Of a stretch of 23,815 bases of DNA, positions 2,503-19,298 are shown one piece after another (the stretch's first letter is position 1; each line of letters begins with the position of its first letter). The DNA is from a virus. The notes under the pieces are model-generated. The model searched no databases and was not told the origin of the DNA. It saw only the letters and a list, made by a program, of their open reading frames with translations. The position numbers and the translations under genes are program-made. The stretch lies in the IMG/VR virus record IMGVR_UViG_3300007516_000152, positions 1 to 23,815 of that record, one strand, 5' to 3'.

Positions 2503-3714
2503 TTATAGTTTCAAGAAAACCTTTCTAGTATCAACTTCGATTCGTGTGATTTGAACTGTTATATTATCATTCTTAGATATCGTGTCTATTTCAATACCTT
2601 CTGGCAATTCGGAAACGTGTAATAATCCGACGATTCCATCACCAATGTCTACGAATACACCATATTCTTTAACAGACTTAATAATACCTACGACTTCGAC
2701 AGGAAAAGATTTGTATTTACTTGCAATTTCTTTCCAAGGATCTATAGTCTCAACATACTCTACTTGAGTTAATGTTATTTTACTATCACTTATGATTTCT
2801 TTAACTTTGAATACAATAATGTCTCCTGGTTGAATTTCTCTATCTTTATGTTTTCTAGCCATTTCTGGCTCTAAGTCATTTGCATGAATCATTCCAGTCA
2901 AACATCCATCAAACTCAACGAATACACCATACTTAGCAGAACCTGTAACATTTCCAGTTTTAGTCTCTCCTAAGTTGTTTCTAAGTTCTTCAACTTTACC
3001 AGGGATAAGTGCTTGTAAATATTTTCTATGTGAAACTATTACAGTGCCTCTTTCTTGAGAATAACTCATAGGAACTACATACATTTCAGTGTTAACAACA
3101 GACTCGAAGTCTACAAGTTTATTAATCCCTGCAAGAGAGCCTGGCATGAAACAATCAATACCTTGAACATCCACAAAATAACCTCCGTTTGGAATCATTC
3201 CAGTTACAGTTCCAATGTATGCAACATTTTGCTCTTCAGTAGCTTCTAGCATTTCTCTTAGTGCCGCTGCTCTAATACCAGCCTCTACAGAACCTACTAT
3301 AAATCCTCTAGAGTTAGACATTCTATCAGCAACTATCTCCACTGTTAGATTAGCTCCAGGTATTAATATATCCTTAGATATTTGATTCTCCTTAGACATA
3401 TCAACATACACCATTTCTCTATGCCCAATATCAATTGAAGCCCATTCACTATCGACTGAATAAACGTCGCCTGTGTGTGTTTCTCCGATAATTACATTGA
3501 ATACTCGTGGTGATGCTGTTTCAAATCGCTCCATCAAATCGCATAATTCCTGAGCGTATGGCGCTCTTGAATAAACAACTACACCCTCGGGTGATTTGAC
3601 ATGTGTATTTGGCCTTCTAAAGCTGCTTGGACAATCAGATACATGAGCGTCCCAATCAAAGTCAAGTAATCCTGACTTTGTTATTTCTTTTTTTGTTTTA
3701 ACGTCTTGTGACAT
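2503..3714 (-). CDS. S1-domain RNA-binding protein (bS1-like)
   Basis: A 403-residue protein with about four S1 (OB-fold) domains: roughly 70-143 (divergent), 163-240, 248-320 and 334-403. The last two are the most typical, with YGVFVEFDGCLTGMIHANDL and YGVFVDIGDGIVGLLHVSEL. Bacterial bS1 usually has about six domains and tethers mRNA to the 30S subunit; this shorter version lacks two. The first ~60 residues match nothing I recognise. It lies alone between virion genes, with its own terminator 24 bases downstream, which suggests separate or high expression. The leader lacks a Shine-Dalgarno site. It may replace or compete with host S1, bring phage mRNA to ribosomes, or protect RNA. Domain identity is firm; the ribosomal role is inference. 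Confidence 0.88.
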   Translation of the reverse strand: MSQDVKTKKEITKSGLLDFDWDAHVSDCPSSFRRPNTHVKSPEGVVVYSRAPYAQELCDLMERFETASPRVFNVIIGETHTGDVYSVDSEWASIDIGHREMVYVDMSKENQISKDILIPGANLTVEIVADRMSNSRGFIVGSVEAGIRAAALREMLEATEEQNVAYIGTVTGMIPNGGYFVDVQGIDCFMPGSLAGINKLVDFESVVNTEMYVVPMSYSQERGTVIVSHRKYLQALIPGKVEELRNNLGETKTGNVTGSAKYGVFVEFDGCLTGMIHANDLEPEMARKHKDREIQPGDIIVFKVKEIISDSKITLTQVEYVETIDPWKEIASKYKSFPVEVVGIIKSVKEYGVFVDIGDGIVGLLHVSELPEGIEIDTISKNDNITVQITRIEVDTRKVFLKL

Positions 3715-3766
3715 TGTTTTGTTTTTTAAAGGGTTAATAAAATATAAGTTATATATTCAATTAATA

Positions 3767-4336
3767 TTAAATTGGAACGGCATCTATTTTTTGCTTAACT
3801 TGTTTAATAGTGTTTATAAGCTTCATAACTTGATCAGGTAACTTAAATTTTATTTTAATACCAGAAGCCAAAAGACCGGCTATTATAATAGCAAGGACGC
3901 CTATTATAGTTTTAAAGGTATTAATATTTGACTTTACGACTAGAATAGTCTGAGCAACGTTTGGAGCACCTGGTGGGACTGTAATTACAGCAGGCTGTAC
4001 TGCTGCTGCTGTGGTTGCAGTAACAGACTCTGGTAATTGCTTTAAACCAGCAATCAATTCCTTGAAAGAAAGCTTTATATTATTGATTTCTATCTTTATA
4101 AGAGCTTTAGCTTCTGGTCCTGATAAAAACTTTTTTAGATCTTTTTTCATTTCCTTTGCTTCTTTCTTAGCTGCTTCAGCGTCTCCAGTTGCTTCTAAAA
4201 GCTGGGCTTCAACCGCTTTTACTTGAACCTCTGCCATATTACTAATTACTGATTCAAAATCTAGACCTGGTATTGCTTGAGACCCAGAAGATGAAAGAAT
4301 ATCTAATGCTGTGCTCATTTCTGATATTTCTGCCAT
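3767..4336 (-). CDS. Unknown virion-module protein with coiled coil and one membrane segment
   Basis: I do not recognise this 189-residue protein. Residues 30-100 are helical and charged (MAEVQVKAVEAQLLEATGDA then many Lys/Glu), typical of a coiled coil. Residues 105-130 are Ala/Thr/Pro-rich. Residues 143-160 form one strong hydrophobic segment (TIIGVLAIIIAGLLASGI), followed by a basic, amphipathic tail. It starts two bases after the stop of the gp5-like spike gene, so it is probably translated with the baseplate genes. Such a shape could suit a tail-tip or injected protein that meets the host membrane, but nothing in the sequence proves that. Confidence 0.7.
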   Translation of the reverse strand: MAEISEMSTALDILSSSGSQAIPGLDFESVISNMAEVQVKAVEAQLLEATGDAEAAKKEAKEMKKDLKKFLSGPEAKALIKIEINNIKLSFKELIAGLKQLPESVTATTAAAVQPAVITVPPGAPNVAQTILVVKSNINTFKTIIGVLAIIIAGLLASGIKIKFKLPDQVMKLINTIKQVKQKIDAVPI

Positions 4337-4338
4337 GT

Positions 4339-5058
4339 TTATTTATTTTTTTGTTGGTAAGTATCGTGAGTTACCTTTAGTTTAGATATAATTACTGGTG
4401 TAACAGCTGTTGGTGGCCCAGTAGGCCCAGTAGGCGTTGGATGTATATGCGTCTTATAGTCATCTAATAAAGTATCTAGCCATTTCTGTAAGGAAACTCC
4501 TCGAACTGCAGGCTCCTCTTCATTTTCGGTACCCTCACCTGTATTGCTTAAGAATACATTTCCAGAGTCAAGGAATATCTTTTCAGTTGTTGATATTTTG
4601 ATATGTCCATTTTCATCTATTTGAATCAAAGGTCTTTCCTTAGCTCCAGTTCCTCGAGCAATTACCAATCCGTCATCTGGTGAATGGTATATTCTTATAT
4701 TTCTGACATCATCATAAACTAACGAAACAACATTATGAGCTGCAGCTGAACTCTCTAGTACTTCTTGTTTTAAAGCTTTACTTTGATCTATTTGAAACCA
4801 ATACTCTGGGTGATATATATTACCATTGTCAAATCGAACAGCAACAACAGTGCCAATGTTTGGTGTATTATGAGAACCTACAAGATCCCTATTCATTGGA
4901 GTTGCCCATGGAATAGCGACATTTGGTAGTTTATCAAATTTACCAAAAACTTTAACACGGCATCTACCTAAAAACTTAGGATCTACATTATCAACAACCT
5001 CACCAATCCAATGAGTTTCTCTAATATTATCGCTATTTAATTCTTTATCTGTTGACAT
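4339..5058 (-). CDS. Baseplate spike/hub protein, gp5 OB-fold type
   Basis: A 239-residue protein. Its N-terminal ~90 residues match the gp5/gpV OB-fold: WIGEVVDNVDPKFLGRCRVK, then IPWATPM, then IGTVVAVRFDNGNIYHPEYW. In T4 this domain joins the spike to the gp27 hub trimer. A short beta-rich part follows (about 120-180, IRIYHSPDDGLVIARGTG), then a C-terminal HIHPTPTGPTGPP motif that is common in phage spike proteins. T4 gp5 also has an internal lysozyme domain and a long beta-helix; both are absent here. The gene overlaps the next upstream gene by one base and precedes the membrane/coiled-coil gene by two bases. The role in membrane puncture is inferred from the family. Confidence 0.85.
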   Translation of the reverse strand: MSTDKELNSDNIRETHWIGEVVDNVDPKFLGRCRVKVFGKFDKLPNVAIPWATPMNRDLVGSHNTPNIGTVVAVRFDNGNIYHPEYWFQIDQSKALKQEVLESSAAAHNVVSLVYDDVRNIRIYHSPDDGLVIARGTGAKERPLIQIDENGHIKISTTEKIFLDSGNVFLSNTGEGTENEEEPAVRGVSLQKWLDTLLDDYKTHIHPTPTGPTGPPTAVTPVIISKLKVTHDTYQQKNK

Positions 5059-6245
5059 TATCTATATGCATTACCTAAATTAATTGCTGCAGAGGCTGCA
5101 GCCTTATCTAAAACCTGGATAGCAGTGCTATTTGGTGGAATATCATTTACATTTTCTCTAATAACTCTACCTATATCCGTTGCTTCATCTGCTTTTTTAA
5201 TAGCATTTGCAAATATATTTTCAAACGTAGGTGCTCTATTTATGGTCCTATTTCTTATTGCTTGTTCTAACTCGTTCTTTTTTTCTATAGCAAATAACCT
5301 AGCTGCTTGTTCTGCCTGTGACTGAAGCTCTTCACCCCTTGATAGTAACCTTGCCTTTATCATATCTGCGATACTATCTTGAAACACTTCAGATTCTGGC
5401 GAAGGTGACATTTGACTTTTCGTGTATTCTGGTGGATCAACAATACCATTAAGCGCCCTGGCTTCTACTTTTTCCAGTTTTTCATATTTTATATGAATTG
5501 TATTTACAGCGTTAGATTCTGGACTTTTTAATAAGTCTGCGAAAATTGAGGTTCCTGAACTTAAATCGAATTCACAATAACCAATGCCTATCATAAAATA
5601 CGGTCTAGATTCAGAACCCGCTATTTCACCATTATTTTTTTGTATACTTAACCCATTGCTTGCAATGTCTCTGATAGTATCTAAAGCGCTTGTAACAGTT
5701 ATGTCGTTAATAGGTCCAAATCCTGCTAATGTTGTTTTAGTCTGGATAGTTCTAACTTCAGTAACATATACCCACATCCTAAATTTTCTTAAGTTTACTG
5801 GTAATATATAACCACCTCTCTGAATATCGTATACTGCACTTTTATATAAGTGCATTAAACCAGCGATTGGTAAGTTTAAAGATTCTAGTGTTTCAATTTC
5901 AAGTTTTGCATCGTCACCGCCCATGTATGGGTTTTCAGAATTTATATTTTGTAATCTTTCAAGTCCTTTTAAAGATTGCCAATACCATGGAAGCTCTGTA
6001 TTAATCGTTTTTAAAGCTTGTTTAAATGCTATAAAGTCTGCCAATCTTTCAGCATAGTATGTGCTGTTATTACCTTCATTATCTGCTAATTTTTTTAAAA
6101 AGCCTTCAGCAGCTTCAGAAAGTAGTGGAGAGCTAGTACTACTGTAGTCAAACATTAATGCAAACGAAAGAAACGTAGGATCTTGGTATTTATACTTCTT
6201 AAACGACCCTTTTCTAAATTCTTTTTGTGTTTTAAAATCTGACAT
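5058..6245 (-). CDS. Baseplate/tail structural protein, family unnamed
   Basis: A 395-residue protein lying between the hub and spike genes. The region at about 105-165 (NPYMGGDDAKLEIETLESLN, then a helix ending AVYDIQRGGYILPVNLRKFRMWVYVTEVR) is typical of a structural family I recall from large T4-like phages, where it sits among baseplate or tail-tube-junction genes. The C-terminal third (about 285-395) is helical and charged, with many Arg/Glu. There is no signal peptide or membrane segment. It shares one base with the spike gene (stop and start overlap), which implies coupled translation. A baseplate or tail-tube initiator role is the best guess; the exact T4 counterpart is unclear. Confidence 0.7.
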   Translation of the reverse strand: MSDFKTQKEFRKGSFKKYKYQDPTFLSFALMFDYSSTSSPLLSEAAEGFLKKLADNEGNNSTYYAERLADFIAFKQALKTINTELPWYWQSLKGLERLQNINSENPYMGGDDAKLEIETLESLNLPIAGLMHLYKSAVYDIQRGGYILPVNLRKFRMWVYVTEVRTIQTKTTLAGFGPINDITVTSALDTIRDIASNGLSIQKNNGEIAGSESRPYFMIGIGYCEFDLSSGTSIFADLLKSPESNAVNTIHIKYEKLEKVEARALNGIVDPPEYTKSQMSPSPESEVFQDSIADMIKARLLSRGEELQSQAEQAARLFAIEKKNELEQAIRNRTINRAPTFENIFANAIKKADEATDIGRVIRENVNDIPPNSTAIQVLDKAAASAAINLGNAYR

Positions 6246-6274
6246 ATTATATATATATTTATTAATTAAATAAA

Positions 6275-7798
6275 TTAAGCTGTTGTTGGCGCTGTAGGTG
6301 CTATAGGCGTTGCTGTAACTGTTTCTGTGTTAATATTATTAAGTCTGCTAGGCCATTCTCTCCTTAATAGATTTATTGATTGCCGCACTGATAGATCGCC
6401 TGCTCTGTATTTATAAATAATACCAGAAACCGTATAAAATCCACTTAAAAAGTCATCAACGACTAATCCGCCCTGTACTTTTCCAACAACATTATCTTTA
6501 ACATCGGTATCGAACCCGTCTTTTTCTTTTTGGTCCTTTCCAACGTTATCCATTGCTATTTTATCAGGATCTTCTAAATAAATTAAAATAGGAATTTTAT
6601 GATACCTATGTATTGCTGGATTATATGTCGTTAACTCAATATCTAAAGACATTTTAGATGCTTCGGCTATATTCTGAGCGTTGTTTATTGCCGAGTATTT
6701 GTAATTTAGGTGAGTGTTTGAAGTTTCAGGGTCGCCTGAAGTTCTTCCAACATATTTACTTTTAATTTCATGTTTGTACCTGTCTTCGTCCCTACGACCC
6801 TTCATAGGTTCTTCAATGTCCTTTAACTTAGTGCTTACAAGCGCTTCTATTTCATGAGAAATTAAACCCTCTTCTGAGTCATCTTCATAATATTGCAAAA
6901 CCCTTTTATAACCGTACATTTTAGTTGTTGAACCTGACTTATTGTTAAGAGACATTTTTGTAATATATAGGTTTGTTCCTGCGTCTTTATCGTGATTTGT
7001 TAATATTAAAGGTTTTTTAGTCTTATTTATTTCATCGGACTTGATACTAGGGTCGTCTGCGAAATCCTCTTCTAGGGCAACGGTTGCCATATCTATATTT
7101 TCTTCAGAATCAATCAACTTATTAAGATTAACATAATTAATGTAATAGTGTGGATCTATGCTGTACACCTGAAAGCTATCCTCATCAATGTAGGAGTGTC
7201 TAACTAAATCTCTTAATGTATCAAACCTAGAATTAAAAGGTATCACTAGATTCATTGAATCATCTGTTGTGTCAATGTTTGTAGCAACTCCAAGCTTTAA
7301 ATCATTAGCTATTGCTTCAATATGGTCTAATGAGTTTCCAAATCCATAAGATTTGCAATCTTCTGAGAAAAGGCCAGGAACCTTCATTATACCACTAAAA
7401 AAGTATTTACTTCCCTCAGTGTTTTTTGCTTTAGGAGGACTGCCAACGCTAGTAATATCAAAGTCGATTCTAATATCTTTATATTCATCTTTATCAAGAG
7501 TACCCATCCTAAAGTTAATTACGTCACCATCTCTAGGAAACGAATCTATATCAAAAACTCCAACGCTATCCATAACAGATATATCTATACTAGGAATTAC
7601 ACCAGTACAATCCAGCGACATACTTATTATATCATCATCAGTAAATGTAAACCCATTAACTGAAATTAACAATAAATAACCCTTACTAGTATTTGCTTTT
7701 TCATTTCCTTCTCCTTCACCTAATGATGCATATACGAGCTTATCTAACTTTATAGTAGGTTCAGTTATTGTTAAGATGTGATTGTTTATAGAAGCCAT
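6275..7798 (-). CDS. Baseplate hub protein, gp27/gpD-like
   Basis: A 507-residue protein. Residues 55-105 (ISMSLDCTGVIPSIDISVMD, then FPRDGDVINFRMG) match the first tube-like domain of gp27/late-control-D hub proteins, which form the trimeric ring holding the gp5 spike. Residues 195-260 (FDTLRDLVRHSYIDEDSFQVY) fit the hub's second domain, where a short helix precedes a strand and 'DPHYYINYVNL'. The C-terminal tail is Thr/Pro/Ala-rich and looks unstructured. Finding it near a gp5-like spike gene and a gp53-like gene supports the call. It is longer than T4 gp27, with extra charged insertions at about 250-400. The start ATG has no Shine-Dalgarno site. Confidence 0.78.
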   Translation of the reverse strand: MASINNHILTITEPTIKLDKLVYASLGEGEGNEKANTSKGYLLLISVNGFTFTDDDIISMSLDCTGVIPSIDISVMDSVGVFDIDSFPRDGDVINFRMGTLDKDEYKDIRIDFDITSVGSPPKAKNTEGSKYFFSGIMKVPGLFSEDCKSYGFGNSLDHIEAIANDLKLGVATNIDTTDDSMNLVIPFNSRFDTLRDLVRHSYIDEDSFQVYSIDPHYYINYVNLNKLIDSEENIDMATVALEEDFADDPSIKSDEINKTKKPLILTNHDKDAGTNLYITKMSLNNKSGSTTKMYGYKRVLQYYEDDSEEGLISHEIEALVSTKLKDIEEPMKGRRDEDRYKHEIKSKYVGRTSGDPETSNTHLNYKYSAINNAQNIAEASKMSLDIELTTYNPAIHRYHKIPILIYLEDPDKIAMDNVGKDQKEKDGFDTDVKDNVVGKVQGGLVVDDFLSGFYTVSGIIYKYRAGDLSVRQSINLLRREWPSRLNNINTETVTATPIAPTAPTTA

Positions 7799-7819
7799 TT
7801 TGTATATTATATAGTAATT

Positions 7820-8317
7820 TTATATAGTAATTCTTCCATTGTTTATCTTGATATTAGTATCTCCTTCTTTTAAAATATTTGGAGGTAAAATCTGGGATGA
7901 TCCATTTGCTTTTTGTTCTGCCTTTCTTTTAAGATATTCAATTCTTTTAGAATCTTTAATAGGAAGACGTTTAGTGTCAATAAATTGATCTCTAATTGAA
8001 ATAGCATTTGCAGGACCCACAATACGAAAAGGAGCAATAGATACGAGAACGTTATCATTTGATGGAATTTCTAAAATATCACCTACATTAAAAGCAAATG
8101 GATTAGACATGTTGTTCCATTTTAATATATAGTCACAATAATCTTCATTTTTGTAATACTTTAAAGAAATTAAATCTATCCTTCCAACTTCATGTTCGAC
8201 TACTGTGTGAGATGCAATTACATCGGTAAATCTCGAGAACACTACAGTAGGCATTGACAAAACCCTTTTAGTATTGTCAGCTGACATTTTCTTATTTTCT
8301 AAAGTATTAAATTTCAT
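7820..8317 (-). CDS. Baseplate wedge protein, gp53-like LysM domain
   Basis: A 165-residue protein. Residues 45-85 (GRIDLISLKYYKNEDYCDYI, then LKWNNMSNPFAFNVGDILEIPS) have the pattern of T4 gp53 and phage gpX/LysM tail proteins: a short helix, W..NN..NPF, then pGd.LeIP. In T4, gp53 closes the wedges around the hub. The C-terminal 50 residues are basic, then polar. The ATG at 8317 overlaps the previous stop by one base (TAATG), suggesting coupled translation. A second ATG at 8287 (MSADNTK) would also leave the domain intact, so the start is not settled. LysM-like domains can bind peptidoglycan, but in this setting a structural role is likelier. Confidence 0.75.
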   Translation of the reverse strand: MKFNTLENKKMSADNTKRVLSMPTVVFSRFTDVIASHTVVEHEVGRIDLISLKYYKNEDYCDYILKWNNMSNPFAFNVGDILEIPSNDNVLVSIAPFRIVGPANAISIRDQFIDTKRLPIKDSKRIEYLKRKAEQKANGSSQILPPNILKEGDTNIKINNGRITI

Positions 8318-10236: not shown

Positions 10237-10279
10237 ATACTTATTAAATTATTTAATTAAAGTATATATCTAATAAAAT

Positions 10280-10330
10280 AAGCTACTCTAAATTATCATA
10301 GTCAATTGATAGAGGTCTATAGAGTAGCTT
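10280..10330 (-). repeat. Inverted repeat spanning the stop codon of the 10283 gene
   Basis: AAGCTACTCTA at 10280-10290 is the exact reverse complement of TAGAGTAGCTT at 10320-10330, with a 29-base loop. The stop codon (10283-10285) is inside one arm. After the hairpin the minus strand reads TATTTTATTAG, which is only weakly U-rich. It could be a weak terminator or a 3' stability element before the virion genes. Confidence 0.6.
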
Positions 10331-10870: not shown

Positions 10871-11270
10871 TTTTAATGATATTAATAGAATCAAAAAGTT
10901 TAATAATCCGATCCTCGATATTTTCGTTACTATTTATCAAAGTTAAAGAGATTAAATAGTCCCCATTAGCCTTTGAATTAATTAGATCCTTAAAATTGTC
11001 TATAATTTCAAAGTCTAGATTTTTAAACAAATAAATCACGCGACTTACTCCTGTTGCTTCAGGGTGTAGATGTCGCGTGACTTCATTAATTATTGTTAAA
11101 CCTATAATTGAGTTACTAGGTTCTTGCCCGTAGGGGTCTGACTTAATTAGCTTATTCTTTATAGAAACATGGTCAATAACCTTAGTGTTGTCCTTTTCTA
11201 TGTTTCTAATAAACCTATTAAATTCTCTTCTAGAGGGGGTCCATACACATTCAATTGATATGCTATTCAT
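10863..11270 (-). CDS. Unknown 135-residue protein
   Basis: No family is recognised. The protein looks globular: strands at the N-terminus (ISIECVWTPSRREF), a central NSIIGLTIINEVTRHLHPE, and alternating strands and helices to the C-terminus (YLISLTLINSNENIEDRIIK). There is no signal or membrane segment. It is the only gene here with a Shine-Dalgarno-like AAGGAG before its ATG, 11 bases away, but that sequence is also the coding end of the upstream gene (LEGDV), so it may be chance. A GC-rich 9-bp inverted repeat (11036-11080) lies inside the coding region. Its end overlaps the next gene's ATG by 8 bases. Confidence 0.75.
   Translation of the reverse strand: MNSISIECVWTPSRREFNRFIRNIEKDNTKVIDHVSIKNKLIKSDPYGQEPSNSIIGLTIINEVTRHLHPEATGVSRVIYLFKNLDFEIIDNFKDLINSKANGDYLISLTLINSNENIEDRIIKLFDSINIIKND
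11036..11080. repeat. GC-rich 9-bp inverted repeat inside a coding region
   Basis: TCACGCGAC at 11036-11044 is the exact reverse complement of GTCGCGTGA at 11072-11080, with a 27-base loop. CGCG is rare in this AT-rich sequence, which makes the pair stand out. It lies inside the 10863-11270 gene, where the codons give VTRH and GVSRVI, so protein constraint does not explain the match well. It could be an mRNA hairpin or a binding site, or simply coincidence. Confidence 0.5.
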
Positions 11271-11273
11271 TAT

Positions 11274-11582
11274 TTAAACATCTCCTTCTAAAGATTTTAA
11301 ATCCTTTCGAAGGGTTTTTATTTTTTCAAGCTTCTCTTGAGGCGTTGGTTTGTAATCAATACCCCAACCTTCAATTACTTTTATTTGGTGTTTGTTTTTT
11401 GAGTTACCAAATGATAGCCCAATATCAATACATATTTCTTGAATAAATTTAATTTTAGTTGGGTGATCGTCAAAGTCATACACTGTGGTAGACTCAAAGG
11501 ATTCTCCAGCTGCATTAATATTATCATCAATCACTGTCTTTATAACACCATTATCTGCTAGTGTTATTTTAACTGTCTGCAT
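11274..11582 (-). CDS. Unknown small acidic protein
   Basis: A 102-residue protein with no recognised family. The first ~45 residues form likely strands (MQTVKITLADNGVIKTVIDD, TTVYDFDD), followed by a helix with conserved-looking IKFIQEICIDIGLSFGNSK and then VIEGWGIDYKPTPQEKLEK; the last 20 residues are a charged helix. The fold may be a small alpha/beta domain. Its ATG overlaps the upstream gene's end by 14 bases, and the next gene starts 3 bases after its stop, so translation along the chain is probably coupled. Confidence 0.75.
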   Translation of the reverse strand: MQTVKITLADNGVIKTVIDDNINAAGESFESTTVYDFDDHPTKIKFIQEICIDIGLSFGNSKNKHQIKVIEGWGIDYKPTPQEKLEKIKTLRKDLKSLEGDV

Positions 11583-11961
11583 TTAACCTAGAGTTTAAAG
11601 ATTTTCTAGCGTCATTGTGCAGTTTTCTAGCTTCCTTTTTGTTTTCTCTAATAGTTTCTTGATTCTTTACAGCAAGCGTAAAGAAAGCTTCTTCTAACAT
11701 TGCAATTTCTTCAGTGTTGTACCCGATGGAAGCCCAAGTTTCTTTCATGATGTTTGCTTTGGTTTGTAAAAAGTCTTCAGTTCTTTCCAAAACAGCTCGC
11801 TCAGTATTTTCATGAGATACTCTTCCATCATCGCCCGTTTTCTTATACCAAGCAAGTCCTTGTTCAGAGAATCTCCCAAACATATTTTTAATATGTAAAT
11901 AACCCATTGCTCTAAACTGAGCTCTTCTTTGTCTTCTAGACGCTGTCGTCGTTTTTGCCAT
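11569..11961 (-). CDS. Unknown small helical protein with a basic N-terminus
   Basis: A 130-residue protein. The first 20 residues are very basic (MAKTTTASRRQRRAQFRAMG), which would suit nucleic-acid binding. The remainder is predicted to be helical: FGRFSEQGLAWYKKTGDDGR, then ERAVLERTEDFLQTKANIMK, and a highly charged C-terminal helix with KKEARKLHNDARKSLNSR. No family is recognised. It overlaps the upstream gene by 26 bases and the downstream gene by 14. It could be a scaffold, an assembly chaperone or a DNA-binding protein; nothing visible separates these. Confidence 0.75.
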   Translation of the reverse strand: MAKTTTASRRQRRAQFRAMGYLHIKNMFGRFSEQGLAWYKKTGDDGRVSHENTERAVLERTEDFLQTKANIMKETWASIGYNTEEIAMLEEAFFTLAVKNQETIRENKKEARKLHNDARKSLNSRLNADS

Positions 11962-12526
11962 TATAGTAATTATTAATAAAAAGTGTTACTTCTTCTGTTA
12001 GATATTCTTGTAGTTTATGTATCTCAATTTGAGAGACTGCCACCTTGGCTATTGTATTAATTAAATTCTCTTTGTCTTCATCTGCATTTTCAATTAACAT
12101 ATCGAATATACCTCTATTAGGTATGTTAAGGTTAATAACTGTTTTAAATGGCTCTATGTTTTTCTTAGAAAGCTTTGCAACTAATTCTTCTAGTGCTGAT
12201 TTAACAGGTTCTATTGTTTCAAGTTTATGTTCTATTTTTGGTGTAATGTTAATTCCTGATGATACATTGCCTAATCCATTTGCCCCTGGAAATGGAATGT
12301 CATTTCCAATAAATTCCTGTAAGAACTCACCAATCATATTATTAAAAATCTTAGACCCATTCGTAAAGTAAGTAAACTCTGTGTCAATTTCTTTTACTTC
12401 AACGATATCGCCGAAATGGTCACCCTTCTTCCATTGGTACTTCTTAGCCTCTTCAACCGCTTCCATTGTTTGCATATTTTGATAATTATATTCTTTTTTT
12501 GAAAATTGTTTCCTAATCCAACTCAT
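11936..12526 (-). CDS. Unknown protein, about 196 residues
   Basis: No family is recognised. From the chosen ATG at 12526 it reads MSWIRKQFSKKEYNYQNM, then GDHFGDIVEVKEIDTEFTYF (possible small beta domain), a Gly/Pro/Asn-rich link (FPGANGLGNVSSGINITP), and a helical C-terminal half ending EEVTLFINNYYNGKND. An ATG at 12577 would give 17 more residues but a 65-base overlap with the upstream gene; the 12526 start gives 14 bases, like its neighbours. The position near baseplate genes made me consider T4 gp26/gp51 hub-assembly proteins, but I see no motif for that. Confidence 0.72.
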   Translation of the reverse strand: MSWIRKQFSKKEYNYQNMQTMEAVEEAKKYQWKKGDHFGDIVEVKEIDTEFTYFTNGSKIFNNMIGEFLQEFIGNDIPFPGANGLGNVSSGINITPKIEHKLETIEPVKSALEELVAKLSKKNIEPFKTVINLNIPNRGIFDMLIENADEDKENLINTIAKVAVSQIEIHKLQEYLTEEVTLFINNYYNGKNDDSV

Positions 12527-12719
12527 AAAACAATGTATCGTCTTCATTTTTAACGTTGTATTTGGTTTTAAACGCATCTATGAAATCAAAACCATTAGGA
12601 TCTCCAATCATAGCATCTATTCTTTGTATATAATTTAAGTAAAATCGATCGCTACCGTGCTCTTTTAGAAACAAGGCGAGAATCAAATCACTCGGTATTA
12701 TTTTTTTATTAAAGCTCAT
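12513..12719 (-). CDS. Unknown 68-residue protein
   Basis: A short protein, MSFNKKIIPSDLILALFLKE then FYLNYIQRIDAMIGDPNGFD, likely two or three helices with an acidic C-terminus (KNEDDTLFYELD). It has no family I recognise. Coding status is supported by a tight fit: its ATG lies 11 bases inside the end of the dCMP deaminase gene, and its stop overlaps the next gene's start by 14 bases, as in the rest of this chain. Confidence 0.65.
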   Translation of the reverse strand: MSFNKKIIPSDLILALFLKEHGSDRFYLNYIQRIDAMIGDPNGFDFIDAFKTKYNVKNEDDTLFYELD

Positions 12720-13224
12720 TCCATAATATTACTTGTTCAACATCAATTTTTGCAGTTTTTAACAGTTCAATGCCACTCATATCTCTATAATCTTCTGTGT
12801 AATATACTTTAGCTATTCCTGATTGTATTATTAACTTAGCACAATCAAAACATGGACATGTTGTAGTATATAATTCAGCACCTTCACAACTCATAGTAGA
12901 CTTAGCAACCTTTGTTATGGCATTTGACTCCGCATGTAAAACTTCTCGTTTTGTAATTCTTCTAGTTGCAATATGAGTTCCATCGATAGAAGGTGTCCAT
13001 CCATCATATCCAAGTTCTTCAGCAGCCTCTCGGTTATAAAATGTAGAAATTTCAGTTTCTTCACATTCGTTGTCAAATCCATGTGGGGTACCATTGTAAC
13101 CGTATGATATTACTTGATTATCCTTTACGATAACACAACCAACTCTTCTGCGAGCAGCATAACTAAGCTTAGCGAATTGATAAGCTACCTGCATGTTTAT
13201 GATTTCTATAGGTATTTTAGGCAT
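12709..13224 (-). CDS. cd: dCMP deaminase
   Basis: A 171-residue zinc-dependent deoxycytidylate deaminase, converting dCMP to dUMP to supply the thymidylate pathway. The family signature is complete: HAE at 97-99 (zinc His and catalytic Glu), PCFDC at 124-128 with zinc Cys125 and Cys128, and the nucleotide-contact stretch YGYNGTPHGFDNECEE at 41-56. VGCVIVKDNQVIS at 28-40 is the expected core strand pair. The segment at 57-93 is the usual insertion before the catalytic helix. Large T4-like phages often carry this enzyme to help make dTTP for AT-rich genomes. Its ATG lies directly after the U-tract of the hairpin at 13227-13263, so expression may depend on read-through. The symbol follows T4 naming. 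Confidence 0.93.
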   Translation of the reverse strand: MPKIPIEIINMQVAYQFAKLSYAARRRVGCVIVKDNQVISYGYNGTPHGFDNECEETEISTFYNREAAEELGYDGWTPSIDGTHIATRRITKREVLHAESNAITKVAKSTMSCEGAELYTTTCPCFDCAKLIIQSGIAKVYYTEDYRDMSGIELLKTAKIDVEQVILWNEL

Positions 13225-13226
13225 AA

Positions 13227-13263
13227 AAAAAGTCTATATATGTTTATTATATATAGACTTTTT
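13227..13263 (-). terminator. Intrinsic terminator abutting the dCMP deaminase start
   Basis: Arms 13227-13241 and 13249-13263 form a perfect 15-bp stem with a 7-base loop. On the minus strand a T-run directly follows the GACTTT arm, and two bases later comes the ATG of dCMP deaminase. It sits 21 bases after the stop of the acidic leader protein. It looks like a genuine intrinsic terminator, but placed so that it would also shape the deaminase leader. Confidence 0.8.
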
Positions 13264-13284
13264 ATTTAGTTTAATTTTAGTATA

Positions 13285-13758
13285 TTATACGTCTTCTACG
13301 TCAATAGCGTCTTTCATTTCTTTACATTCGTTAATTTTCTTAGTGAATGATTCAGACATTTTGTTTAAACATGCTTCATATGCTTCAGTTTCCATGTCTG
13401 ATTTCAGTTCGTTTAAGCAATCAGCAGCCAATCCAGCTACTAATGATGCGTTTTCTGCCATGTATGTTTCAACAGTGTGCTCATCATGCGCATCTTCACT
13501 CCAGGTTTTAGCTTCAATCTGTGCATAATCATAACATTTCTTTAACATTTCTGAAACAGGAGTATTTTCTTCCTTTTCAGCATTTGTTCCTATGTTAGCT
13601 TCTCCGGCTTCGCTAATGAAGTTCTTGTCTTTGATTACCGTTTCAGTCTCTTTGTCTGATTTAACTTCAGGAGTTCCTTTAGAAACTAAATCTTTTTCTA
13701 TTTCCTCAGATCTGTCCATTTCTGAAACAAACTCTTCGAATCTTTTAATACTTGTCAT
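13285..13758 (-). CDS. Acidic protein with capsid-targeting-like leader (internal head protein candidate)
   Basis: A 157-residue, strongly acidic protein. It starts MTSIKRFEEFVSE, like the T4 capsid-targeting sequence of internal head proteins (for example MKTYQEFIAE), which the gp21 protease cuts after (I/L)-x-E or similar. Here VSE ends the leader at residue 13, and a second canonical site, ISE followed by Ala, lies near residue 52. A low-complexity Lys/Glu/Thr section (15-60) separates the sites from a helical C-terminal part with four Cys residues (KKCYDY, ADCLNEL, EACLNK, NECKEM). The same leader begins the next upstream gene, and the DNA is identical for 43 bases. Packaging into the head is inference. 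The acidic section could also suit a scaffold. Confidence 0.72.
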   Translation of the reverse strand: MTSIKRFEEFVSEMDRSEEIEKDLVSKGTPEVKSDKETETVIKDKNFISEAGEANIGTNAEKEENTPVSEMLKKCYDYAQIEAKTWSEDAHDEHTVETYMAENASLVAGLAADCLNELKSDMETEAYEACLNKMSESFTKKINECKEMKDAIDVEDV

Positions 13759-13769
13759 AATTTATCTTA
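13727..13769 (-). repeat. 43-base direct repeat, copy 1 (leader plus first codons)
   Basis: This copy is identical to 14015-14057 over 43 bases. It covers the 11 bases before the ATG (TAAGATAAATT on the coding strand) and the codons for MTSIKRFEEF. Exact identity at synonymous positions and in the leader points to a recent duplication or gene conversion of a translation-start-plus-targeting module, while the rest of the two genes is unrelated. Confidence 0.9.
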
Positions 13770-14046
13770 CTCTTTTTACATGCGCCCAACTTACATAGAC
13801 TTTATCAGGAATTGCTAGTTCTTTTCCTTTTGCTAAGGATGTGAGCTTTTTTATCATTTCGTCTCTATCATCTTTTACCCAATCAAAATAGACAAGCGCA
13901 TTTGCTGCGTCATAAATGTCTACACCGTTTTCTTTTCCGTATTTAGATACTCCATCGTATCGATCAGACGTCCAACAATCAAAGAGTCTATCATCGACTT
14001 TTATGTCTTCATTTACAAACTCTTCGAATCTTTTAATACTTGTCAT
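13762..14046 (-). CDS. Small protein with the same capsid-targeting-like leader
   Basis: A 94-residue protein beginning MTSIKRFEEFVNE, nearly the same leader as the following gene, with a possible protease site after VNE at residue 13. The mature part (DIKVDDRLFDCWTSDRYDGV, IYDAANALVYFDWVKDD, then a basic end, VYVSWAHVKRVR) is compact, aromatic-rich and unlike its neighbour's. I do not recognise a family. If the leader works as in T4, this protein is packaged in the head and injected with DNA. T4 IPI, which blocks a host restriction enzyme, is the best-known example. The next gene begins 3 bases after this stop. Confidence 0.7.
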   Translation of the reverse strand: MTSIKRFEEFVNEDIKVDDRLFDCWTSDRYDGVSKYGKENGVDIYDAANALVYFDWVKDDRDEMIKKLTSLAKGKELAIPDKVYVSWAHVKRVR

Positions 14047-14057
14047 AATTTATCTTA
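14015..14057 (-). repeat. 43-base direct repeat, copy 2 (leader plus first codons)
   Basis: This is the second copy of the leader-plus-targeting module, offset by exactly 288 bases from copy 1. The match ends sharply at both sides (the first differing bases are 14014 and 14058), which suggests a discrete transferred segment rather than slow divergence. Confidence 0.9.
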
Positions 14058-14076
14058 TTTTACAATCTACTTATTT

Positions 14077-14394
14077 CTATATATCCTTGTTTTTTAAGTA
14101 ATCAAAGCTAGTTGGTATCAAATAGTCCATTACCTTTAAGTATTTCAATAACATAAAGAATACTATTCCACCTGGCATTAAGAATATTGTGGTAAGCCCA
14201 ATAGTCTTCATGATGTTTTTTAGTTGATTGGTGACCTGTAAATGTTCTGTTTCTGTTAGTTTTCTTTTCTCAATTAAACTCAGCCTAATATTCTTAGATA
14301 TTGATCTAGTTTCTATGCCTTCTTTTTTAAGAGCTTCTAAAAATAAGTTAACATTCTTTTTAAGATTGACTAACTCAGGCTTGCTACGTTTCAC
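14077..14394 (-). CDS. LETM1-like small membrane protein
   Basis: A 105-residue protein. The part from 46 to 100 follows the core of the LETM1 family: KLTETEHLQVTNQLKNIMK, then one hydrophobic segment (about 64-86, IGLTTIFLMPGGIVFFMLLK) and LIPTSF. The LETM1 pattern is similar: a 'LT..E' helix, a membrane segment with a central Pro, then LPSTF. LETM1 proteins act in inner-membrane ion exchange in mitochondria, and Bacteroidota carry related proteins. The N-terminal 45 residues are basic and helical. The start is a GTG at 14394, because no ATG lies upstream before an in-frame stop and the next ATG is past half the protein. Its job in a phage is unknown; host-membrane alteration is possible. 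Confidence 0.6.
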   Translation of the reverse strand: MKRSKPELVNLKKNVNLFLEALKKEGIETRSISKNIRLSLIEKRKLTETEHLQVTNQLKNIMKTIGLTTIFLMPGGIVFFMLLKYLKVMDYLIPTSFDYLKNKDI

Positions 14395-14450
14395 TGATTG
14401 AACTATATTTGTTAACTATATATCTTAATTTGTAAATTCTGGTATGTTCG

Positions 14451-14678
14451 CTAGCGAATATTTTTAATGCTGTTTAAGAAAGATTCGAACGAAGTAGCTT
14501 CATTGAGTGTAAGTATGTCAGTATCTTTTAAGAACAATCCTCCTCCAACATTAATTAATATATCTCCGTCCTTTCTCTCAACAGATTCAATTTTATAAAC
14601 AATTGAATCTTCCATACAGACTACATGAGTAGCAGATACTAATCTTTTAATTCTTTCGTACTCTGAATGATTTTCCAT
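14451..14678 (-). CDS. Unknown small protein
   Basis: A 75-residue protein starting MENHSEYERIKRLVSATHVV. It has a beta-rich middle (SIVYKIESVERKDGDILINV, then GGGLFLKDTDIL) that may be a small barrel, and ends in a short helix. No family is recognised. I chose the ATG at 14678, which leaves 4 bases after the upstream stop; an ATG at 14732 would overlap that gene by 50 bases. Its stop codon lies inside a 12-base palindrome (14447-14458). Confidence 0.65.
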   Translation of the reverse strand: MENHSEYERIKRLVSATHVVCMEDSIVYKIESVERKDGDILINVGGGLFLKDTDILTLNEATSFESFLNSIKNIR

Positions 14679-14682
14679 AACA

Positions 14683-15105
14683 CTATAGCCATTCGTAATA
14701 ATGGTCAACTGATGCGCTGCATCTAATGCCATCTAGTATCAATACATCTAAATCGGAGCCACTTAAAGAATTTACAAATGATTTAATGATTCCTTCTAGT
14801 TTAATCGTGTTATCAATATCTAATGGTATTGTTGCTTCTTTAAAGTAGGTTTCAGTAGCATTTGTTGCTACAGCGTCACAGACTACTCCGGTTATATATG
14901 AATCATCATTGAATCGAAGTCCATTATGATAGCCGTCATGATAATCATCAACGGGAAACATCGTAGAGATTGTCTCGTACGAATTGCCATGCCTTAATTT
15001 ATATAAGTTCACTGCGGTTTGAATGAAAGGCTTAACACTAGTTGATGGACAATCTATAGTCGCTACAAATTCCTCACATGTGCAATTTATTTCTGAAATA
15101 TTCAT
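14683..15105 (-). CDS. Unknown 140-residue protein
   Basis: No family is recognised. The protein has several Cys residues near the N-terminus (NCTCEEFVATIDC), a His/Tyr/Asp-rich patch at about 50-62 (FPVDDYHDGYHNGLRF), and a C-terminal alternation of strand and helix (IIKSFVNSLSGSDLDVLILD). There is no membrane segment. It is the second gene after promoter copy B, 20 bases behind the first. The His-rich patch could bind a metal, but no known site pattern is visible. Confidence 0.72.
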   Translation of the reverse strand: MNISEINCTCEEFVATIDCPSTSVKPFIQTAVNLYKLRHGNSYETISTMFPVDDYHDGYHNGLRFNDDSYITGVVCDAVATNATETYFKEATIPLDIDNTIKLEGIIKSFVNSLSGSDLDVLILDGIRCSASVDHYYEWL

Positions 15106-15125
15106 AATTTAATTATTGTTTAATT

Positions 15126-15413
15126 TTAGTTTATTATTTGCATTTTTGGGTAAGCCTTACATGTACGGAAAACCAATGTTACTCTTTTTAATAAATCCAA
15201 AGAAAGATCCTTTGATTCTACTAGTAAATTATCATACAAATATCCATCGAATAATCCGTATAGTTTGTTCTGCAAGGACATTGAAGTTTCATGCTGTACT
15301 TCATTATTGAATTCTACTGCATTAATGATTGACAATATCTCAGATCGAGTATCTTCTGTCATATTGTCATGTCTATTGAATATAGAGTACTTTATGGTGT
15401 TTAAGTTTTTCAT
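15126..15413 (-). CDS. Unknown early-type protein, first gene after promoter B
   Basis: A 95-residue helical protein (MKNLNTIKYSIFNRHDNMTE, SEILSIINAVEFNNEV, YLYDNLLVESKDLSLDLLKR) with a mildly basic end. I see no membrane or DNA-binding motif. It lies directly after the strong promoter-like module, with a 26-base leader from the -7-like box. In many phages the first genes after such promoters act early against host functions, but nothing in this sequence shows what it does. Confidence 0.72.
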   Translation of the reverse strand: MKNLNTIKYSIFNRHDNMTEDTRSEILSIINAVEFNNEVQHETSMSLQNKLYGLFDGYLYDNLLVESKDLSLDLLKRVTLVFRTCKAYPKMQIIN

Positions 15414-15435
15414 AATACTTTTGTTTTTATTTGTT

Positions 15436-15501
15436 ATAAGTAAATATAATCAATTTATATAGAAACCGAAACAAAAAAATGTTAAAAAATGTTAAAGTTA
15501 T
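15436..15501 (-). promoter_or_regulatory. Phage promoter copy B
   Basis: On the minus strand there are two TTAAC boxes 10 bases apart (15481-15485 and 15491-15495), a 32-base spacer containing ATAAATTGAT, then TATATTTAC (15440-15448), close to the Bacteroidota -7 consensus TAnnTTTG. A TTTG at 15472-15475 lies 23 bases upstream of that box and could serve as a -33 element, but it is not conserved in the other two copies. The first gene starts 26 bases downstream. The TTAAC boxes would lie near -46 to -60, one helical turn apart, so they look like activator or UP-element sites. Confidence 0.7.
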
Positions 15502-15543
15502 TAACGATCAAGGTATCTTATGATTTGTTGTGTGTAAATATAA

Positions 15544-15573
15544 ACAAAAACCTCAGACTAAAAAATCTGAGGT
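15544..15573 (-). terminator. Intrinsic terminator after the RNase HII gene
   Basis: ACCTCAGA and TCTGAGGT (15566-15573 and 15550-15557 on the minus strand) form an 8-bp stem with an 8-base loop, followed by TTTTTGTTT. It lies 69 bases past the RNase HII stop and upstream of promoter copy B, so it closes the long operon that begins near 19233. A weaker 7-bp hairpin (15607-15634) lies between it and the stop codon. Confidence 0.85.
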
Positions 15574-15642
15574 GTTAATTATATGTTAAAAGTTTACTTA
15601 TAAAATATATATGAAAGTAACGGGTTCCATATATTATATTTT

Positions 15643-16275
15643 TCAAAACAACGAAATGGTCTCATTAAGAAGATGCGAAATAAAACTAGGCCTATGGTGA
15701 TTGCATGGTCCTATTGCTTTAATAGCTTCAATATGCTGCTTTGTGCCATATCCTTTATTACTATTCCAACCATATCCTGGGTTTTCGACGTCTAGTTGTT
15801 TCATCATAGAATCTCGTTCAGTCTTGGCCAAAATACTCGCTGCCGCGATTGAGATATACTTATTATCACCTCCAATTATGGTTTCAAATGGCATGCCGTC
15901 AAACCCATGAAATTGATCTCCATCTACTAGGATAAAATCAAACTTTACTTTCTTCTGTACTTCTTCCAAACAACGTTGCATTCCCCTTAAGGTTGCTCTT
16001 AATATGTTTGTTGATTCAATTTCAGTAGGATGTATATGTTCTATATGGTATGCTATTGCATTTTCCTCTACTATCATTCGAGCTTCCTTGCGTTGCTGTT
16101 CGTTAAGTAATTTAGAATCTTTAATCAATGGATTTGAAAATCCGTATGGCATGATACATGCTGACACGGTAACTGGTCCACATAATGCACCTCTTCCTGC
16201 TTCGTCAATCCCAATCTCAATTATTGATGAATCGCCCGAATGCGAATGTTTAAGTAGTATTTGTCTAGTTTCCAT
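15643..16275 (-). CDS. rnhB: Ribonuclease HII
   Basis: A 210-residue RNase HII, which cuts RNA in RNA-DNA hybrids and at single ribonucleotides in DNA. The catalytic set is complete: Asp24 and Glu25 in IGIDEAGRGALCGPV, Asp118 in ILVDGD, and Asp155 in AASILAKTERD. The C-terminal GYGWNSNKGYGTKQHIEAI and HHRPSF motifs also match. Its length is that of normal bacterial enzymes, so it appears intact. T4 uses an unrelated RNase H to remove Okazaki primers; here a host-like RNase HII may do that. It is the last gene of the operon, 45 bases after PhoH. Its start codon lies in a 12-bp hairpin stem with TATAAATA overlapping the loop. Confidence 0.93.
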   Translation of the reverse strand: METRQILLKHSHSGDSSIIEIGIDEAGRGALCGPVTVSACIMPYGFSNPLIKDSKLLNEQQRKEARMIVEENAIAYHIEHIHPTEIESTNILRATLRGMQRCLEEVQKKVKFDFILVDGDQFHGFDGMPFETIIGGDNKYISIAAASILAKTERDSMMKQLDVENPGYGWNSNKGYGTKQHIEAIKAIGPCNHHRPSFISHLLNETISLF

Positions 16276-16305
16276 CTATATATTTATAAGTATTATATAG
16301 ATGGA
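16271..16305 (-). promoter_or_regulatory. Hairpin hiding the RNase HII start codon, with a TATAAATA box
   Basis: Arms 16271-16282 and 16294-16305 form a perfect 12-bp stem with an 11-base loop. The ATG (16273-16275) is in the downstream arm, so it would be paired in any message read through from phoH. The minus strand also has TATAAATA at 16281-16288. A transcript started there would lack the upstream arm and leave the ATG free, but with T4 spacing it would begin almost exactly at the ATG. Hairpin formation is seen in the sequence; the switch is inference. Confidence 0.55.
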
Positions 16306-16320
16306 TGTTAGATTGTTTCT

Positions 16321-17031
16321 TTATTTCTTATCGTTTTCAATTCTCCACTTATCATATTTTCCTACAACTTCTTGTAAAATTTTAGCTCTAACGATATCTT
16401 TGTTCTCGAATTTATGATGACCGATTCCATTAATTCCTTCCATTAGCTTTATAAAACCTGGAAGTCCTGTGCTTGCCTTTGGAATATCATATTGACTAAT
16501 ATCACCAGTAACAAGGACCTTTGAGCTCCTACCCATTCTTGTCGTAAATAACATAAGTTGAGAAAACGTTGCATTTTGAGCTTCATCCAGGATCATAAAA
16601 CAATCGTCGAAAGTATCTCCTCGCATAAATGCAAGTGGTTTAAATTCAATTAATCCGTATTGTATAAGACTTTCAGTTAATTCATTTCCTACAATTTTCT
16701 TGAAGTTAGAGATATACGACTGCATATACGGGTCTATTTTATCTGCAATGTCTCCTGGTAAGAATCCTAGCTTTTCTCCAGATTCTTGAATTGGTTTACA
16801 TAGAATGATTTTCTTGACCTTCTTTTCTGCTAGCAATAACAAAGAAGTGTAGCATGCTGTAAATGTCTTTGACGTTCCAGCAGGACCTGAACAAAACGTG
16901 ATTTTATTTTTTAAAATATGTTGCACGTATTCTCGCTGACTGTCCTTTAAGTTAACATGCTTTATATGCTCTTCTTTTACTGACATTCTTGGTATGGTTT
17001 GTGCTTGTTCTGAACTGGTCTTCTTTATCAT
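16321..17031 (-). CDS. phoH: PhoH-family ATPase
   Basis: A 236-residue PhoH-like P-loop ATPase. Walker A is GPAGTSKT at 49-56, with Lys55 and Thr56 binding the nucleotide. Walker B is CFMILDEAQN at 144-153, with Asp149 and Glu150. Sensor-like VLVTGDISQYDIP and the AFMRGDTFDD stretch are also typical, as is the KIILCKPIQESGEKLGFLPG segment. The family often pairs with nucleic-acid or RNA work in bacteria, and many marine phages carry it, though its role there is not settled. The gene lies in an operon with bS21, a DnaJ-type protein and RNase HII. The core is complete, so it is probably active. Confidence 0.93.
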   Translation of the reverse strand: MIKKTSSEQAQTIPRMSVKEEHIKHVNLKDSQREYVQHILKNKITFCSGPAGTSKTFTACYTSLLLLAEKKVKKIILCKPIQESGEKLGFLPGDIADKIDPYMQSYISNFKKIVGNELTESLIQYGLIEFKPLAFMRGDTFDDCFMILDEAQNATFSQLMLFTTRMGRSSKVLVTGDISQYDIPKASTGLPGFIKLMEGINGIGHHKFENKDIVRAKILQEVVGKYDKWRIENDKK

Positions 17032-17045
17032 AAACTAGGATATAT

Positions 17046-17303
17046 TTAATCGCCTGTCATCATAACAAGCTGTTTAAGTTTTTTAAGCGATTCGCATTTC
17101 TCGTATTCCTCTAACTCTATAAAGTATTCTAATAGAACATCAATAAATCGGCTGCGTTGGCCAATTCCGTGAGGTATATCAATAGTATTTTTACCATCTT
17201 GATATACTATAAATCTATTTACGGTCTTTGTAAAGTTTCGGGTAATTATATAGTAGCTGGATCGCATAAGAGAATCTCTTTCATCTCCTGTTATCTCTTC
17301 CAT
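17046..17303 (-). CDS. EEYEKC small protein 1 (UVR-motif-like)
   Basis: An 85-residue protein. Its last 30 residues, LLEYFIELEEYEKCESLKKL, match two other small proteins of this operon (17590-17844 and 18920-19213) around EEYEKCxxLKK. The spacing of this helix pair resembles the UVR motif of UvrB/UvrC and ATP-dependent Clp proteins, a protein-protein contact module. The N-terminal part (SYYIITRNFTKTVNRFIVYQ) is beta-like and differs from the paralogues. A partner cannot be named. It starts 107 bases downstream of bS21, after an operator-like inverted repeat, and precedes phoH by 14 bases. Confidence 0.72.
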   Translation of the reverse strand: MEEITGDERDSLMRSSYYIITRNFTKTVNRFIVYQDGKNTIDIPHGIGQRSRFIDVLLEYFIELEEYEKCESLKKLKQLVMMTGD

Positions 17304-17323
17304 CTTTTTAATATTCTTTTTGT

Positions 17324-17343
17324 TATGATACTAAAGTATCATA
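17324..17343. promoter_or_regulatory. Operator-like inverted repeat in the leader of EEYEKC protein 1
   Basis: TATGATACT and AGTATCATA form 9-bp arms around a 2-base centre, 21-40 bases before the ATG at 17303. The compact symmetry is like a dimeric repressor site, and the flank (TATATACTATATA on the minus strand) could hold a promoter. In RNA the loop would be too tight for the full stem, so a DNA-binding site is likelier than a terminator. No U-tract follows. Confidence 0.5.
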
Positions 17344-17410
17344 TATAGTATATATTTAGATGACAACGTATTTAACAATACCTAGTTAAAAAGGGTACTA
17401 TACTACTATA

Positions 17411-17599
17411 TTATAGTTCTTTATCTTGCAGCGATTGTTTATATTTTGCCTTGCTCTTCAATGTTCTTCCATTAACTGAAGGTTTTATATATTCCTTTCT
17501 GTCCCGAAGTTCTTGAAGTTGCTTTGTGGCAAATGTTTTGCGCTTTAATGTTTTAAGCGCCTTTTCTATATTTTGATTGTCTACTTTAACTATGAGCAT
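17411..17599 (-). CDS. rpsU: Ribosomal protein bS21
   Basis: A 62-residue homologue of small-subunit protein bS21: MLIVKVDNQNIEKALKTLKR, then LQELRDRKEYIKPSVNGR, then a basic end. The YIKPS stretch followed by Arg/Lys and a short tail is the form found in Bacteroidota bS21, rather than the longer, Arg-rich tail of Escherichia coli. In Bacteroidota, bS21 lies near the 3' end of 16S rRNA with bS18 and bS6 and helps cover the anti-Shine-Dalgarno sequence. Phage-encoded bS21 is known from metagenomic phages. This copy overlaps the UVR-motif gene upstream by 10 bases. It would be expected to enter host 30S subunits during infection; whether it changes mRNA choice is inference. Confidence 0.9.
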   Translation of the reverse strand: MLIVKVDNQNIEKALKTLKRKTFATKQLQELRDRKEYIKPSVNGRTLKSKAKYKQSLQDKEL

Positions 17600-19232: not shown

Positions 19233-19298
19233 ATAAGTAAATATAATTAATTTATATTGAACCTTAAAATAAAATATGTTAATTTTTGTTAAATTTAC
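19233..19298 (-). promoter_or_regulatory. Phage promoter copy C
   Basis: This copy aligns without gaps to copies A and B. GTTAA boxes lie at 19278-19282 and 19288-19292 (TTAAC on the minus strand, 10 bases apart), and TATATTTAC is the complement of 19237-19245. The region ATAAATTAATTATATTTAC is almost the same as in B. It stands before an operon of about eight genes (UVR-like protein 3 to RNase HII) that ends at the 15544-15573 terminator. Confidence 0.7.

Follow-up and report, generated by a model that had tools for sequence, protein, structure and literature searches.

Why would a phage encode both a protein resembling ribosomal protein bS1 and a homolog of ribosomal protein bS21? The question is raised by a 23,815-base phage fragment from IMG/VR (record IMGVR_UViG_3300007516_000152; the whole stretch is called the window here), in which the main genes all lie on the minus strand. 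Because the S1 and bS21 genes occur on this single 23.8 kb fragment, they are physically linked in one phage. Structural genes related to those of the window are found in Tenacibaculum, Chryseobacterium and Lak phages, and the host is therefore likely to belong to the Bacteroidota. The phage probably carries its own S1 and bS21 so that host ribosomes make virus proteins. More specifically, we give a probability of roughly 55% to the reading that phage bS1 captures host 30S subunits for phage mRNA while phage bS21 enters the neighboring site. The observations that bear on it concern homology, architecture, docking residues, conservation of a late-type promoter element, synteny and co-occurrence.

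A phage relative of ribosomal bS1

The S1 open reading frame (ORF) encodes 403 amino acids and matches the Pfam S1 family (E=2.9e-22). Its best sequence matches in the PDB are ribosomal bS1 proteins, among them those of Escherichia coli (6e-32) and Flavobacterium johnsoniae (9zcd, 2.6e-24). A family profile built from 24 relatives is colinear with OB1-OB4 of bS1 (hmmsearch 8e-51, profile positions 46-383), aligning in a single stretch with residues 7-344 of E. coli bS1 and 39-369 of F. johnsoniae bS1 (the latter query is PDB 9zcd, identical over 549 residues). The AlphaFold model of the window protein (mean predicted local distance difference test score 79, predicted TM-score 0.50) comprises an N-terminal helix and four OB folds, so that the four S1 domains of the initial annotation are recovered in the model, while Pfam alone reports two stretches above its threshold. 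All of the top nine Foldseek matches of this model in the PDB are ribosomal S1 or organellar homologs, the lead match being bS1 on a 30S mRNA delivery complex; the match to 9gut_B reaches 5e-26 over 367 columns. The Foldseek TM-scores are low, probably because the angles between domains differ, and the sequence-based colinearity is the firmer result.

Identity with PNPase, RNase R, Tex, NusA or Rrp5 was considered and rejected, as the matches to these classes are far weaker than those to the main bS1 entries. Pfam detects the S1 domain in the window protein, and none of the catalytic or partner domains of the non-ribosomal S1 classes. Sequence and fold matches alike place the protein with ribosomal bS1 and not with the PNPase, Tex or RNase types, in line with the initial annotation. 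The bS1 proteins of E. coli and the Bacteroidota have six OB folds, a form that is not found here: the window protein and the aligned family members end after OB4. The window S1 is thus a true bS1 relative trimmed to its core.

A scan of viral contigs recovered 110 relatives of the window S1, and the family alignment holds 45 distinct proteins from large uncultured phages (at least 45). Invariant in it are F19, W21 and Y53-A54, as well as stretches in OB2 (GGY.V..QG..CFMPGSLAG.NKL), OB3 (CLTGMIH) and OB4 (GLLH.SE), and the S1 motifs of OB3-OB4 are kept in all aligned members. The phenylalanine and tryptophan of the N-terminal F-x-W motif are conserved in 45/45 members, and the N-terminal motif score is at least 5 in 41 of the 45, compared with 2.2% of shuffles. 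This motif matches the DFNWDAYE-type starts of five Bacteroidota bS1 proteins (L187-L190 and F. johnsoniae) and partly those of Prevotella Lak phages; it was not found in the gammaproteobacterial, alphaproteobacterial and chlamydial bS1 proteins compared.

Positions used by bS1 for docking are also retained. Lys43, Phe120 and Phe130 of E. coli bS1 make uS2 and mRNA contacts (D'Urso 2023, PMC10123108). The residue at the Lys43 position, which in E. coli enters the zinc pocket of uS2, is always K or R in the 13 family rows examined (R99 in the window) and is basic in 7/7 huge-phage S1 rows as well, and aromatic residues occupy the Phe120 and Phe130 positions in all 13 family rows (Y179 and F189 in the window). 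The E. coli N-terminal helix, whose Phe5 and Phe9 stack on uS2, may have a counterpart in the helix predicted by the model at residues 54-67. The S1 proteins of Lak phages (L199, L200) and the family member L010 agree at 44% over 50 residues in the N-terminal segment and at 20% in OB1; for Lak S1 and the window protein the corresponding values are 24% and 26%. Since the likeness between Lak S1 and L010 is greater in the N-terminal segment than in OB1, this segment may be a constrained docking part.

All sampled phage S1 proteins (window family, Lak and huge phages) are split from those of hosts by a 100/100 branch in the tree. This branch and the very long stem of the clade point to an old phage lineage and not a recent host copy. 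In the approximately unbiased (AU) test, joining phage S1 with Bacteroidota bS1 gives p=0.379, and the tree, with its long stem, does not assign the phage clade to any one host phylum. Scans by short peptide patterns found no close S1 homologs in genome_contigs, bS21 in Nitrospirota only in the same set, and nothing for F. johnsoniae bS1 in viral_contigs; because of the short patterns used, these absences of recent host copies are weak evidence.

The S1 gene follows the baseplate genes and stands just before amidoligase-like and neck genes in 16/16 loci. Of 38 distinct S1 starts, 32 have the element ATATATAA in the 80 bases before them, compared with 1.6% of random same-strand 80-mers. The S1 gene is thus part of the late structural cluster and usually lies behind ATATATAA. 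Its constant neighbor, also adjacent to the neck gene, is the ORF at 1034-2326 (minus strand), which has an amidoligase-like N-terminus and a repeat region.

The bS21 gene and translation starts

The window bS21 has 62 amino acids and matches Pfam Ribosomal_S21 with 49.8 bits (cut-off 27). Its nearest PDB sequence is F. johnsoniae bS21 (7jil), and the aromatic residue that covers the anti-Shine-Dalgarno (anti-SD) sequence is kept as Tyr53, in an alignment column that is mostly Y and also F or H. The Bacteroidota form named in the initial annotation is therefore confirmed, as is the placement of the two genes in different transcription units: S1 has its own ATATATAA, and the bS21 operon follows TTATATTTACTTA at 19246. 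A second copy of TTATATTTACTTA is present at 15437-15449 (minus strand); both copies have ATATAAATT as their upstream part and likely represent one promoter class.

The bS21 gene belongs to a conserved block with the order ORF, ORF, DnaJ, ORF, bS21, ORF, PhoH, RNase HII, found with minor gaps in 10/10 bS21 loci of S1-bearing phages; most of the sampled bS21-only relatives lack the DnaJ-PhoH block. Three small proteins around bS21 (17046-17303, 17590-17844 and 18920-19213, all on the minus strand) have in common a C-terminal EEYEKC..KK motif and are kept even where bS21 is missing. A UVR-domain label given by eye to small ORFs near bS21 was dropped, as Pfam gave no UVR match at E values up to 1.

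Among 50 records with S1, 20 also contain bS21, and many of the negatives are short contigs; S1 is present in 5 of 37 bS21 records, including one of 476 kb. Two sister lineages and several huge phages (476-735 kb) have both genes. Records LR756501/503, LR745206, LR756502 and LR756504, which we take to be huge-phage records of the Al-Shayeb study, contain both. One S1 clade, with S1 identity of about 69% and contigs of up to 236 kb, has the DnaJ gene in nine records; at the four loci read, PhoH and the two small ORFs that elsewhere flank bS21 are all there, but the gap of about 90-95 bases between these ORFs contains no bS21. This clade nests among bS21-bearing relatives, with weak support at one node, so that loss of bS21 is the simpler reading.

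Shine-Dalgarno (SD) pairing was scored for 35 start regions of the window against the 3' tail of 16S rRNA. The S1 start scores 1.6 and the bS21 start -0.3 kcal/mol, and 34 of the 35 starts are not below -8 kcal/mol, in agreement with the lack of SD sites initially described. The lone exception, before 11270 (-10.9 kcal/mol), is missing in the closest relatives (0.2 in L006, -3.2 in L010); it is thus probably a codon-driven chance match, and its reading as a functional SD was rejected. Across related loci, moderate SD-like pairing (below -4.5 kcal/mol) is seen less often at starts than at mock positions, whether the phages have both genes, only S1 or only bS21, and strong pairing (below -7) is rare throughout (1-5%). 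Since phages show this depletion equally whether or not they carry either gene, it reflects the host group; in Bacteroidota ribosomes the anti-SD is hidden (PMC9976891).

The rpsU genes of Flavobacteriales are preceded by an extended SD of -14 to -21 kcal/mol, by means of which ribosomes that lack bS21 increase its production (PMC9976891). With the scoring used here, a full extended SD reaches -21.9. No autoregulatory SD of this type (below -13 kcal/mol) precedes the window rpsU, and 0/101 phage rpsU loci, many of them near-duplicates, fall below -4.3 kcal/mol. Because phage rpsU lacks the extended SD, phage bS21 would be made outside host feedback. The S1-encoding LR756501 (L206, 735 kb) is unlike the other phage rpsU scored in having a strong SD, AAAGGAGGAT (-12.1 kcal/mol). 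Together with four Bacteroidales host rpsU genes that likewise lack an extended SD, it weakens a clear-cut rule that phage rpsU has lost the host autoregulatory SD. The contrast holds for Flavobacteriales-type hosts only, with the host side taken from the literature.

Table 1. Features of the S1 and bS21 loci in the window
Feature	Position	Strand	Evidence or remark
Phage bS1-like protein, OB1-OB4 of bS1	2503..3714	-	Pfam S1, PDB sequence matches, AlphaFold and Foldseek, 45 distinct family members
N-terminal segment, residues 17-67; F-x-W (F19, W21), predicted helix 54-67, Y53-A54	3514..3666	-	Bacteroidota bS1 alignment, invariant columns, model, motif score
OB1, residues 79-142; R99 at E. coli Lys43 position (uS2 zinc pocket)	3289..3480	-	Model, alignment
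OB2, residues 165-228, best-conserved domain; Y179/F189 at E. coli Phe120/Phe130	3031..3222	-	Model, alignment
OB3, residues 250-316	2767..2967	-	AlphaFold model
OB4, residues 338-402; no OB5/OB6 thereafter	2509..2703	-	AlphaFold model
Late-type promoter-like element ATATATAA upstream of S1	3749..3756	-	32/38 distinct S1 upstream regions
Lone SD-like AAGGAGAT before the 10863-11270 gene	11280..11287	-	-10.9 kcal/mol; judged chance
PhoH-like ATPase, bS21 block	16321..17031	-	Pfam PhoH 5.6e-63
Small conserved ORF downstream of bS21	17046..17303	-	Synteny
bS21 (rpsU), Bacteroidota form	17411..17599	-	Start overlaps upstream ORF by 10 bases; without SD; Tyr53 = F. johnsoniae Tyr54
Small conserved ORF upstream of and overlapping bS21	17590..17844	-	Synteny, 10/10 bS21 loci of S1-bearing phages
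DnaJ-like co-chaperone, bS21 block	17864..18664	-	Pfam DnaJ and DnaJ_C, synteny
Promoter-like element TTATATTTACTTA of bS21-containing operon	19234..19246	-	Two copies in window

Elsewhere in the window, the neighboring proteins at 13285-13758 and 13762-14046 (minus strand) have an identical N-terminus, MTSIKRFEEFV, which in sequence seems to resemble the capsid-targeting starts of T4-type internal proteins. The ORF at the window edge (23423-23815, minus strand) encodes a collagen-like Gly-x-y repeat and is probably a tail-fiber or surface protein.

Possible roles on and off the ribosome

In E. coli, OB1 of bS1 docks on uS2 and the C-terminus of bS21 bridges OB1 to 16S rRNA (D'Urso 2023, PMC10123108). 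By homology, the sites of the two phage proteins thus neighbor each other on the 30S platform. Late in infection, phage bS1 would take the loosely held bS1 place on the host 30S via uS2 docking, and its OB2-OB4 would recruit A-rich phage mRNAs without SD sites. Phage bS21, whose gene lies behind another type of promoter, would enter the adjacent platform site and keep the anti-SD tail covered by Tyr53, leaving a 30S suited to SD-less mRNAs. It may be replenished or replaced independently of phage bS1, the two proteins acting on adjacent sites yet being retained independently. Exchange of the host ribosomal proteins by their phage counterparts is likely; ribosome binding and a preference for phage mRNA are further predictions of this capture model.

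Several properties of the host proteins agree with it. OB1-OB3 form the essential minimal core of E. coli bS1, OB4 is stimulating and OB5-OB6 are dispensable (PMC3858243); the retention of OB1-OB4 counts in favor of capture because these are the domains that E. coli needs. F. johnsoniae bS1 raises initiation on SD-less mRNA about 2-fold, and loss of bS21 lowers initiation on such mRNAs (PMC9976891). The bS21 aromatic sequesters the anti-SD (PMC9723584), and phage bS21 can enter E. coli ribosomes (Mizuno 2019, PMC6375957).

Other observations weigh against capture. E. coli ribosomes with phage bS21 are nearly inactive (Mizuno 2019, PMC6375957). The stem of the S1 clade amounts to about 2.5-2.9 changes per site from every host bS1, so that function may have shifted. 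The column of E. coli Phe9 holds Met or Leu in most family rows (Met61 in the window), in a region where the alignment is loose. Docking of the S1 family on the ribosome is deduced from homology, and ribosome binding is accordingly a prediction. The missing SD sites do not serve as evidence for the pair, as had been proposed, since depletion is similar in all three phage groups. Finally, the pair is recurrent and separable, not obligate: a bS21 profile has no match even at E=10 in the records of the S1-only clade, and S1 is missing from bS21 phages whose contigs reach 268 kb. The two genes recur together in related lineages, but not in that one S1 clade or in most sampled bS21 phages.

These points leave room for other roles. 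The S1 protein might protect or remodel phage late mRNA off the ribosome, or work alongside an RNase or polymerase of the phage, in the way that bS1 cooperates with RegB or Q-beta replicase. S1 domains bind RNA in many settings, the full set of OB folds has diverged from hosts, and Al-Shayeb 2020 (PMC7162821) leaves the choice between action on and off the ribosome undecided. However, the conserved positions include ones that bS1 uses at the mRNA exit site and for docking on uS2, and the N-terminal motif of Bacteroidota type persists, which makes an off-ribosome function rather unlikely. A virion or structural role is considerably less probable still: the invariant place beside the amidoligase-like and neck genes in all 16 loci would suit a packaged or structural protein that merely resembles bS1, but both the sequence and the fold consistently match ribosomal bS1, and the window S1 hits no structural PHROG.

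Two further proposals keep the protein on the ribosome. As a decoy for host shut-off, phage S1 would fill the uS2 site and, with OB5-OB6 missing and different OB surfaces, deliver host mRNA poorly, thereby lowering host translation without actively recruiting phage mRNA. Such a decoy would explain the retention of docking positions despite the absence of the C-terminal RNA-binding domains, and it accords with the drop in translation seen with phage bS21 (Mizuno 2019, PMC6375957). It is nevertheless unlikely, as OB5-OB6 are dispensable in E. coli, the OB3-OB4 motifs persist in every aligned member, and a late-type promoter suits the synthesis of virion proteins and not early shut-off. An extension of the capture model, which we put forward only tentatively and hold to be doubtful as it stands, is that the 30S platform is refitted as a unit: at the mRNA exit site, trimmed phage bS1 and bS21 would replace the two exchangeable host proteins, which touch each other, and an rpsU without extended SD would escape host autoregulation. 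If true, such a refit would yield a class of ribosomes that is specified by the virus and selects phage late mRNAs.

Comparison with known systems

These genes bear on the question of whether viruses build specialized ribosomes; the existence of a true phage bS1 had been doubtful. With its docking positions conserved, the dispensable domains absent and bS21 as a recurrent partner, this bS1 family is a testable system: related structural genes are found in isolated phages whose hosts are culturable Flavobacteriales (such as Tenacibaculum and Chryseobacterium), and the S1-bearing clade without bS21 provides a natural control. The additions made here are evidence that a phage S1 family is bS1 proper at several docking positions, its trimmed architecture, its fixed place in the late cluster, and a pairing with bS21 that is recurrent yet separable.

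Al-Shayeb 2020 (PMC7162821) lists huge phages with S1 and S21, reports that S1-bearing ones rarely have SD sites, and notes that a true rpS1 is hard to confirm. The pair is therefore less novel than initially assumed; the new case is the well-conserved S1 family with its Bacteroidota-like N-terminal motif. In the tree the huge-phage S1 proteins are on the phage side together with the window S1, but they are only about 30-42% identical to it and lack F-x-W; LR756500 has the same baseplate-S1-neck order as the window. The docking residues and the separate contig lineage described here do not appear in the passages of that study considered here.

The Bacteroidetes bS21 phages of Chen 2022 (PMC9723584) encode the same Bacteroidota form of bS21 with a Tyr54 equivalent. 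In those phages bS21 lies beside terminase and capsid genes and is expressed late, whereas in the window it lies in the DnaJ-PhoH block behind another promoter type, and S1 is present too. The jumbo cyanophage PhiMa05 (PMC13157829) likewise encodes bS1 with other ribosomal proteins; its set consists of bS1, bL21, bL27, bL33, uL11 and uL1 from a Vampirovibrio-like host, without bS21. F. johnsoniae bS1 and bS21 (PDB 9zcd, 7jil) have in common with the phage proteins the F-x-W motif, the OB1-OB4 order and the anti-SD-covering tyrosine. The host bS1 has six OB folds and the phage S1 four, and host Flavobacteriales rpsU carries the extended SD (PMC9976891) that the window rpsU lacks (-0.3 kcal/mol).

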